Assembly (NCBI GenBank): GCA_001604385.1
Contig: LVBK01000011.1
Coordinates: forward strand, 1-64,000
Direction of reading: 5' to 3'
Origin: Spirochaetales bacterium Spiro_09
GTDB taxonomy: Bacteria > Spirochaetota > Spirochaetia > Treponematales > Treponemataceae
Length of the DNA: 64,000 bases
The notes under the pieces were generated by a model. The model saw only the letters and a list, made by a program, of their open reading frames with translations, ran no database searches and had not been told where the DNA came from. A program made the position numbers and the translations under genes. Of the stretch, positions 30,370-33,374 are shown one piece after another; the stretch's first letter is position 1; each line of letters begins with the position of its first letter.

Positions 30370-32202
30370 TTACACGGTATACAGCGATACTATTTCTTCG
30401 AGCCCGGTTACCGCGCTGTCGGTACCGGCGTTCTCTTCCTGCAGGGCGTCGCTCGCCTGGGCAACCCGGGCGATCCCCTCCACAAGCTCGTTCATCGACT
30501 CCGCGATGGACACGCTCAAATCCCTCAGGCGACTGACCGCTTCCACCATTTCCGCATTCCCCTGCCGCATTTCGCGGGAACTGTCAAACACCGATGACGT
30601 TATTTTCTCGATACTGGACAGGGTAGCGGCCACATCGGAACCCCGGCGGGCGCTTTCCGCGGTAAATTCCCGCATGGAGGTATTCATGTCATGCACCCTG
30701 GCGGTCGCATCCCGAATATCGGAAAAGGCAGACTCGACGCTTGCCGAATCGCCCGCAATACGTGAAATGGAGCGTAAGACCTTGCCCTGGTTTTCGGAAA
30801 TTGTCTTGGACTGCTCGGCAGACAGTTCGGCAAGTTTGCGTATCTCGTCCGCGACGACACTGAAGCCCCGGCCGGCATCCCCGGCATGGGCAGCCTCAAT
30901 GGCGGCATTCATGGCAAGAAGGTTCGTTTGTCCGGAAATATTCGCGATCAGCTCATTCGCCTCGGAAAGATGGGTAGAATTTTTCGAGATCAGGGCAATT
31001 TCCTCGGCCATACCGGACAGGAGCGAACGGTTTTTTTCGACCAGTACAACCAGGGACTCTGTCATCGCGGCGTTTGATTCGGTTAATTTATTCATCCGTT
31101 CATTCGCTTCCACCAGGTCGAGAATCACCGTTCGGGAGCTGACCACCTGCTCTTTCTGTATCGTTATCTGCTGGCCGAGGGAATCTATGTTCCGCGTCAA
31201 CTGCTCGATGGCCGCCGCGGTTTCCGCAACATTCGAGCTTTGATCCTGTATTCTGGTTTTTACCCCGTCCGCATTCGCGTCCATCTGACTGACCGCAGTG
31301 ACAGTTTCATGAACCTGGCTTGTCAGACTGTCCTTCAAATGGGTCAAGGATTCAAGAAGCTGCTTGAGGGACCGGACATTATCGCGCAAACCGGTAAAAA
31401 AACCGTCGGCTGCAAGCAGGGAGGCTCCAATTTCATCGGTAGTAGTAGGCCGTGAACGGGCGCGAAGGTCCCCCGAAGCACCGACCGAAAACCCGCGAAC
31501 CAGGGCATTCAGCGGTTTAATGATGTAACTTGAAAGCTGAAAAATAAGCACCACCACCATGGCAAGCGCCACCAGACAGGCGATCAGGTTCAGATACATA
31601 ATATTGAGCGGGAGCATGCGCCCGGTAAGCGGCACAAGGTTCGCCGTAATATTGGTCATGTACAGAAACAAACTGGTACCGGTGAATATACCCCCGACAT
31701 AGAAGACCAGCTTGGCCCGGACGGAAAACCACAGGTAACCGGAGGGAAAGCGACGTTTCAGGTAGCCCTCCATACGGTTTATCAAAAGGGCCACGAAGGG
31801 AATCATGATCATCAATTCAAAGGCGACAATAAAGCCGGCAGTTATTACCAGGACATGGGGAAACGAAGAACCGACCCTGGCGACAACCAGGATACTACAT
31901 ATTGCAATGACCAGGACAAGAGAGCATAACGCACAGGCGAACACCAGATGAAAGCGCCGCCTGACAGACCGCTCGTCCTGCAAGCGGTCAATGGAACGAA
32001 GCAACAGGTGGCATACCGTCAGGAAGGCGGCGGTCTCGGCAAGCAAGAAAAGGTAACTTTCAGGCAACGAAAGCAAAAAAACAAGCTCCGGCAGGGCAAA
32101 AAAACCGGTCAACACCGCAAAAGGAGCCAGAAGTCCCAGCGGGAAAAAAGCTATTCCCAAACCGACAAAGAGTGCTGCTGCCTCGATGTGTAGTCTTTTC
32201 AT
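30370..32202 (-). CDS. Methyl-accepting chemotaxis protein with polytopic membrane sensor region
   Basis: 610 residues from an ATG at 32202 (GGAAGGGA SD). The first 240 residues contain about six membrane helices and no large periplasmic domain. A HAMP-like region at about 240-290 follows, then the signalling domain with the hairpin tip [28 protein letters not shown] (positions about 445-472; core [13 protein letters not shown]). It should couple to CheA/CheW. Sensing is probably intramembrane or through a membrane partner. The ATG overlaps the upstream acyltransferase-like gene by ATGA. Confidence 0.9.
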
Positions 32203-33239
32203 GATGATGTCCCTTCCTTCTTCCCGCGTATGTGCAGGAGAATTTCGTCTTTCCATGCACCAACCCATTCACGCGTTACGGCCGGGTCGGTCGACAATTC
32301 GGGGTGCAGCTGCATGCACAGGCTTAATCGACCTCTCCAGGTCACACAGCCAGACGCGATTTTGAAAAACAGCATGGGAGGCGGCGCAAACAACCAGTCG
32401 CCGTCAATATCGGTTCCTTTGAATGCCCCCTCATCGTCCCACACGCCGATATTCGAAAAGACCCCGGCCATCCATTGCGAGGTAACCCGGTCTATTTTAA
32501 TGATGTGCCGTTTGACCGAACGGGAAACGGCCCGAAGCGCGGTGTAGGCAAGCCAGTTTGCCCACTGCTCGCCGCGGGACAGGGCCCGGTATACCCGTTC
32601 GTGGACGCCTTCGGGAGACATACCCTTTTCCACGACTACCCGCACATAGGTGGTATGGTTTTCGGTATCGCACGTGCGGACAACCTTGCCCCGGACATTG
32701 ACGGGTACCATCCAGGGAATGAAGGGCGTCTTGTCGCTGACGCGTCGTTGCACTACCGTACTCAGGGCCGAGAGCAGGAGCGAATTGACCGTAACACGGT
32801 TACGCCGGCACCAGAGCCTGATATTGATAGTTGTCATTTCATCGAATACATGCCAGGCGACCGTTTCGGAAGGACGGTCGGAGCGGGAGGGAACACCATC
32901 CGTAAACGGCGGGTCCCAGACAATTCGCCTGCGCGGCATGGCATACAGGGGCAGGCTTTTAAAAAAAGGACCCCACGAGATCTCTTTCTCGTGGGGCATC
33001 AGGGGAAGAGAGTCCAGACACACGCCTCTCGAGCGCAAGATGTCGGCAAACCCGCCAATTCCATCATAGTCGGCGTGCGATTTATACACCCATTCCACCT
33101 CGGAGGAATCAGGCGGAATACGGCCAAACCGGATGCCGATATGATCCCCAAGATCTTCCGAAGCCTCGAACCATGGCCTGATCGGATCGCGGGAGCCCTT
33201 CATCGGGCCCTGGCCAGACTGCGCGTGTGTCGGTTTCAT
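32199..33239 (-). CDS. Acyltransferase of the CoA-dependent (condensation/WS-DGAT-like) superfamily
   Basis: 346 residues, no signal peptide or membrane segment. [10 protein letters not shown] (about residues 54-63) matches the H-x-x-x-D-G catalytic motif of condensation, wax-ester synthase and chloramphenicol-acetyltransferase-like enzymes. Further fits: [21 protein letters not shown] and [11 protein letters not shown] near the C-terminal half. The ATG at 33239 has AGGGA upstream. Translationally coupled to the following chemoreceptor. Substrates unknown. Confidence 0.65.
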
Positions 33240-33374
33240 GTGTTTCCCTGCATCAATTCAACGTAATGATCGGATTATCTCACGGATAACCGTTTCAGGG
33301 TAACACCTGATAATCTGGCAGTCAAGTTAAAAATTACACATTTATACAACCGCACGCTCCGTCCGGCCCCCTGT

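Follow-up and report, generated by a model that had tools for sequence, protein, structure and literature searches.

In one genus of uncultivated spirochaetes, a chemoreceptor gene and a gene for a compact acyltransferase-like enzyme are conserved side by side and passed on together. They lie in the stretch of 64 kb that we analysed (the window), which comes from a 2.7-Mb spirochaete draft genome. We judge the chances to be about even that the two genes form a unit for acyl-lipid signalling, in which the membrane kinase that partners the enzyme in other phyla would have been replaced in spirochaetes by an unrelated chemoreceptor. The pair may make the swimming of these spirochaetes responsive to a lipid signal.

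Two adjacent genes conserved within a spirochaete genus

The list of open reading frames and the sequence place both genes on the minus strand at positions 30370–33239, with the enzyme gene 5′ of the chemoreceptor gene. The enzyme gene (32199–33239, minus strand) encodes 346 residues plus the stop codon, and from the reading frame, alignment, an AF2 model and fold matches its product is predicted to be a condensation-fold (PapA/WS-DGAT-like) protein. The chemoreceptor (MCP) gene (30370–32202, minus strand; 610 residues plus stop) was identified by PF00015 and by orthologues in four other genomes. Its true start is at 32202, and a longer frame of 632 residues is the same open reading frame with a start further upstream, inside the enzyme gene. 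The TGA of the enzyme and the ATG of the chemoreceptor (32202–32200) share an ATGA at 32199–32202 (minus strand), in the context CATCATC-ATGA-AAAG. Putative Shine-Dalgarno sequences, assigned by their resemblance, are AGGAAGGGA (32210–32218, minus strand) for the chemoreceptor, within the end of the enzyme gene, and AGGGA (33245–33249, minus strand) ahead of the enzyme start. Compared with their relatives, both genes have changed more at the third codon position than at the first and second, as is expected of translated genes.

A scan for promoters and terminators gave counts within the range expected from shuffled sequence. Within the enzyme coding sequence, an 11-pair hairpin followed by CCTTTTTTTA is present at 32970–32997 (minus strand), one of only two in the window with at least 10 pairs and a T-rich tail. 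Comparison with four homologues of the gene (G001, G002, G008 and L028) did not show this hairpin there, and it may be a chance feature or a local attenuator.

The enzyme and the sensor part of the receptor were each searched in the same 59 genomes (the source genome and 58 relatives), of which 12 belong to the genus and 47 to the wider family and order. The enzyme is present in five of the 12 genus genomes (G000, G001, G002, G004 and G008) and the sensor in the same five, where the two genes are adjacent in every case; conserved adjacency, which the original prediction had proposed as a check, is thus seen within the genus and reaches beyond the source organism. Neither was found in the other seven genus genomes or in the 47 genomes of the family and order. 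Absence from the seven is less sure, because these assemblies are 72–99% complete, with three below 80%. Across the 12 genus genomes, the co-occurrence of the two genes has a Fisher probability of 0.0013, calculated with kinship ignored. Named relatives carrying the pair are ‘Spirochaetales bacterium’ SZUA-475, SZUA-416 and SZUA-438.

Of the translational coupling that had been proposed, the ATGA overlap in the window is real, but coupling as a conserved trait is not supported: the gaps in the four relatives are 10, 12, 13 and 23 nt, so the overlap is local to the source genome. The surroundings of the pair vary as well. It adjoins asnB in the window, G008, G004 and G002, and is flanked on the other side by carB wherever that gene is also visible (the window and G008, and G004 via a carB-like end); in the window, the orientation of the pair relative to these two genes is reversed. 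In G001, the corresponding interval reads carB-kinase-marC-asnB, with the pair on another contig, and carB-asnB intervals lacking the pair are also found in G005, G006 and G011. Its relocation in G001 and inversion in the window indicate that the pair behaves as a unit.

These arrangements bear on whether the two genes, with unrelated functions, have merely come together by chance or under a shared promoter. The variable junction, with its ATGA not conserved, and the confinement of the pair to one genus among the genomes searched would fit such an incidental operon, but adjacency in five of five enzyme-bearing genus genomes, at enzyme identities down to 45%, and a pairing that survives relocation and inversion make it very unlikely.

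The receptor sensor and the predicted enzyme fold

The receptor occupies one of 28 MCPsignal places in the source genome. Its signalling domain (30601–31026, minus strand) matches PF00015 with an E-value of 8.9e-26 and 91.2 bits (cut-off 34.6), and is preceded by a HAMP-like stretch (31423–31533, minus strand) that scores below the cut-off (PF00672, 16.6 bits against 25). The sensor part, residues 1–240 (31483–32202, minus strand), is predicted from hydropathy and the AF2 model to form six transmembrane helices with short loops. Hydropathy, examined in six proteins, gave six hydrophobic segments, and the AF2 model of the sensor, at low confidence (pLDDT 69.6), has six long helices ahead of the HAMP-like stretch; with only short loops between them, a periplasmic domain is not predicted. 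The description of this protein as a chemoreceptor with a six-helix membrane sensor and no periplasmic domain therefore holds. The orthologues in the four other genomes are full-length and 51–56% identical; in this receptor, the sensor (52–53%) and the rest (52–58%) are conserved to about the same degree.

A profile search with the N-terminal region, again as proposed in the original prediction, returned no known ligand-binding family in Pfam, and no Pfam family of any kind at E ≤ 0.1 for residues 1–248. A fold search with the sensor model gave no match at E ≤ 0.001, a result that says little because that model is of low confidence. Across 392 genomes of the spirochaete phylum, ten sensor matches reached E ≤ 0.001, of which only those in G000 and G008 were counted. 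The other eight were weak (E-values from 9e-4 to 6e-6); seven of them covered no more than the last helix with the beginning of HAMP, and the eighth covered the first helices. The CheA dimerisation domain (PF02895) is over its cut-off in all five pair-bearing genomes, making a chemotactic output plausible.

G002 contains a second receptor (L024:758-2611) with a related six-helix sensor, 26–30% identical (26% over residues 8–232), and no enzyme beside it. Its neighbour is presumably a katG-like gene, judging from a look at the sequence.

Our confident prediction is that the enzyme adopts a compact fold of the condensation/CoA-dependent-acyltransferase type, in which the H-x-x-x-D-G motif is intact. 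The codons for this putative catalytic motif (His55, Asp59 and Gly60; 33060–33077, minus strand), located by alignment and model, read SHADYDG in the window enzyme. An alignment of 18 homologues (the five genus members and 13 others) has His55, Asp59 and Gly60 invariant in all 18, with the first histidine of HHxxxDG replaced throughout by serine, arginine, proline or aspartate. Two further motifs, F-S-N-x-G-x-W and W-M-x-P-V-N-x-R-G, run across the same 18. The genus enzymes are 45–55% identical to the window enzyme and keep all three motif residues.

The AF2 model of the enzyme (pLDDT 89.1, pTM 0.88) places the motif between a strand at residues 49–54 and a helix at residues 60–70. Its top structural match is AzeD (8s6l), with a Z-score of 25.7 over 308 aligned residues, and further matches include NRPS C and Cy domains (Z 16–21), WS/DGAT (6chj, Z 17.6; 7nxg, Z 16.7), PapA5 (1q9j, Z 15.8) and the trichothecene acetyltransferase TRI3. 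PapA5, WS/DGAT and C domains are aligned over model residues ∼12–343 with Z-scores of 15.7–25.7, spanning two CAT-like halves, and the enzyme is 6–16% identical to the matched solved structures. As in the superfamily, the fold covers nearly the whole enzyme and the motif sits at a strand–helix loop. Full-length relatives carry the motif well beyond residue 100; the window enzyme differs in having only 346 residues, with the motif at residue 55 and a short part before it. We infer acyl-transfer activity from this model and motif, although AzeD is annotated as a dehydratase and acyl transfer by the enzyme is accordingly not certain. Our literature search found no passage on AzeD itself.

Family assignment is less definite. 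The window enzyme matches no Pfam family over cut-off; PapA_C scores 15.5 bits (cut-off 30), and is the only Pfam family seen among the homologues, matched by 16 of the 18 at E ≤ 0.1 (best E-value 6.3e-6). When the sequences of the enzyme family were compared with those of solved structures, the best hits were 7xgt (E-value 0.065) and 4rv9 (0.72), in short, motif-centred stretches that we find unconvincing. No WS/DGAT family in Pfam reached E ≤ 0.1 in any of the 18, and the window enzyme has no WS/DGAT match in NCBIfam. Of the original assignment to a condensation/WS-DGAT type, the motif and the common fold thus stand, but membership of the WS/DGAT family does not.

The same evidence bears on whether the enzyme alters membrane or storage lipids while the receptor senses a property of the bilayer or the energy state, with no dedicated ligand. 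A sensor wholly embedded in the membrane and a fold common to wax-ester and diacylglycerol synthases would suit this explanation; the missing WS/DGAT Pfam match in the 18 members and the PhcB/PhcS-like neighbours described below, which point to a signal, argue against it, and we consider it unlikely.

Relatives and neighbours of the enzyme in other phyla

Among the 392 spirochaete-phylum genomes, the enzyme was found in three, one of them distant (G349), and among 387 Verrucomicrobiota genomes there were three convincing matches; two weak ones at ∼19 bits (G571 and G636), of which one contains two stops, were put down to chance and left out. A scan with the single window enzyme recovered no relatives. 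A pattern scan built from the alignment of five enzymes and run over 84,980 species recovered 14 loci, comprising three spirochaetes (with the pair), ten Verrucomicrobiota and one Omnitrophota; these last two phyla hold the closest kin of the enzyme outside the spirochaetes. Plasmid records gave no enzyme match. The enzymes of the five spirochaetes cluster together in a tree (support 89/99, and a single cluster in 88% of 200 bootstrap trees), a result that suggests a single transfer of the enzyme between phyla, in one direction or the other.

In G349, a member of the same class, a relative ∼28% identical to the enzyme by tblastn lies between two sulfatase-like genes (L062:1939-6179), one of them checked against Pfam, and no MCP gene is beside it.

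We examined the neighbours of the enzyme at 12 non-spirochaete loci, 11 from the pattern scan plus G731. At six of these (G731, G417, G416, G415, G418 and G420), the enzyme occurs within ∼13 kb of a FadL-type porin, a methyltransferase and a membrane kinase. A response regulator is also present in five of the six; the contig of G420 ends inside the kinase. FadL was identified by PF03349 over its cut-off in the three loci tested and by 46–61% identity in the rest. In G419, the enzyme and an adjacent FadL are on one contig and the cassette is on another, and in G424, FadL and the cassette are together with the enzyme elsewhere. At the remaining four loci (L034, L035, L036 and L038), of which two have little flanking sequence, the enzyme stands alone, and the methyltransferase was not found in their genomes.

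The methyltransferase is present in 22 of the 387 Verrucomicrobiota genomes, including all three that have the enzyme, an overlap with a hypergeometric probability of 1.6e-4, or 0.0028 without the genome on which the sample was centred. The other 19 methyltransferase-bearing genomes gave no convincing enzyme match, and none nearby. FadL lies near the methyltransferase in five of the 19 enzyme-less loci, at 28–39% identity. A PhcBSQ-like cassette is fairly widespread in Verrucomicrobiota.

At these 19 enzyme-less loci (L112–L130), a homologous kinase stands beside the PhcB-like methyltransferase in 18, most of them with a regulator. In Coraliomargarita sp. SDUM461004 (L055:6267-12539), a highly reducing polyketide synthase (KS-AT-DH-ER-KR-ACP) lies between FadL and the PhcB-like methyltransferase. 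We found no thioesterase match in this synthase, and in such a setting release or transfer of the acyl chain would be a possible role for a condensation-fold enzyme.

Judged through a Paraburkholderia cluster, the Verrucomicrobiota methyltransferase-kinase-regulator cassette is PhcBSQ-like. The Verrucomicrobiota methyltransferase is 36.9% identical to that of Paraburkholderia graminis over 97% of its length. In P. graminis, the gene order is methyltransferase, a 445-residue kinase and two response regulators; the kinases of the two groups align from the membrane part onward (E-values from 1e-23 to 1e-33). The regulators can likewise be aligned. The phospho-acceptor-type histidine of H-E-V-N-N-P in the P. 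graminis kinase is residue 233, close to the His230 given for PhcS in a passage of PMC11960443. PMC11960443 and PMC8578825 describe the PhcB product as methyl 3-hydroxymyristate or methyl 3-hydroxypalmitate, sensed by PhcS. By this comparison via P. graminis, the Verrucomicrobiota loci appear to share with PhcBSRQ of Ralstonia (3-OH MAME/PAME) the methyltransferase, a six-helix-type kinase and regulators, but their kinase has an additional REC-HisKA-HATPase half, and they also contain FadL and the acyltransferase-like enzyme. In contrast to PhcBSRQ, the spirochaetes with the pair gave no PhcB-like or FadL match: the methyltransferase was found in none of the five pair-bearing genomes and FadL in none of the 12 genomes of the genus.

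At one threshold, six membrane segments are predicted in the spirochaete receptors and the Paraburkholderia kinase, and three to five in the Verrucomicrobiota kinases. Homology of the receptor sensor to the membrane part of the kinases was considered and rejected, at an hhalign probability of 0.2% (five receptor sensors against eight kinase parts).

Among the neighbours at the examined loci, chemoreceptors are not partners of the Verrucomicrobiota kin of the enzyme. This counts against acylation of the receptor, or of a different Che protein, by the enzyme, as does the general observation that known condensation-fold enzymes use carrier-bound or small-molecule acyl substrates. Such acylation has the adjacency in its favour, and would explain a tight pair that does without FadL or the methyltransferase; we regard it as highly improbable.

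A candidate lipid-signalling unit

For the substrate, product, ligand and behaviour of the pair, we infer the following scheme. The enzyme would transfer an acyl chain, with CoA or an acyl carrier as donor and an alcohol as acceptor, or would process an acyl compound in some other way, and would thereby make, modify or clear a membrane-soluble lipid signal. The six-helix bundle of the receptor would detect the lipid inside the bilayer, and the change would pass via the HAMP-like and signalling domains to CheA, with swimming responding. In the other phyla, the same step would act on gene regulation by way of a histidine kinase in the membrane. What the two settings have in common is that the linked partner of the enzyme, receptor or kinase, has a multi-helix membrane input part.

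The FadL and PhcB-like neighbours indicate a long-chain acyl compound, and the absence of FadL from the 12 genus genomes and of a PhcB-like protein from the five with the pair means that in spirochaetes the lipid chemistry or its source must differ. The lipid or acyl theme put forward in the original prediction has gained support from beyond the window, through the FadL and PhcB/PhcS/PhcQ-like neighbours in Verrucomicrobiota; that the receptor senses the substrate or product of the enzyme is our interpretation of this context. Against the signalling unit, we counted the failure to find the methyltransferase and FadL in the spirochaetes, the unrelated membrane parts of receptor and kinase, the second G002 sensor that stands without an enzyme, the four solitary loci of 12, the 19 of 22 methyltransferase-bearing genomes without a convincing enzyme match, and the dehydratase annotation of the top structural match. 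A more specific version, in which the spirochaete makes or edits a fatty-acyl autoinducer, a six-helix chemoreceptor of a new family detects it in the bilayer, and the enzyme is a portable module joined elsewhere to a kinase, is tentative, and we would lean against it.

The pair could instead serve nutrition, with the enzyme processing an environmental hydrophobic compound (a fatty alcohol, a hydroxy acid or a lipid signal from a neighbour) and the receptor steering the cell there, without any self-made signal. Receptors are commonly paired with enzymes that act on their ligands, no methyltransferase to finish the synthesis of a signal was found in the pair-bearing spirochaetes, and FadL, the Verrucomicrobiota neighbour, belongs to a family of uptake porins. 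However, no other catabolic gene is kept with the pair, whose neighbours are housekeeping genes (carB and asnB) and differ in G001, and FadL was not found in the 12 genomes of the genus. We hold this explanation to be doubtful.

Returning to the signalling unit, chemotaxis of Escherichia coli to AI-2 runs via LsrB and Tsr, and to our knowledge the known chemoreceptors for cell-to-cell signals detect small polar compounds via periplasmic domains. The unit proposed here would likewise involve a chemoreceptor that detects a cell-to-cell signal, but where AI-2 and the Pseudomonas dCACHE receptors involve small polar signals and a periplasmic protein or domain, here a membrane bundle lies beside an acyl-transfer-type enzyme. 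PMC5056481 and PMC7584622 describe chemotaxis to a quorum signal, AI-2. For rhizobia, PMC9938287 describes FadL as taking up long-chain AHL signals, with a link to motility. The likeness lies in a FadL porin tied to the uptake of a hydrophobic signal, and is relevant to the Verrucomicrobiota loci only, as opposed to the spirochaete genus, where FadL was not found in 12 genomes.

None of the receptor type, the fold or PhcBSQ-type signalling is new in kind. On limited evidence, what appears to be new is the pairing with a chemoreceptor, together with the association of the enzyme, FadL and a PhcBSQ-like cassette. The open-licence papers searched yielded no description of a chemoreceptor paired with such an enzyme or of that association, and nothing on Verrucomicrobia together with the 3-OH PAME signal. 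A membrane-bundle receptor tied genetically to an acyl-transfer-type enzyme would offer a concrete candidate for swimming guided by a lipid signal, and the link to Verrucomicrobiota suggests a class of compound, long-chain hydroxy-acyl esters and their acylated forms. Luteolibacter marinus NBU1238, recovered by the pattern scan, is a named strain that carries the enzyme.
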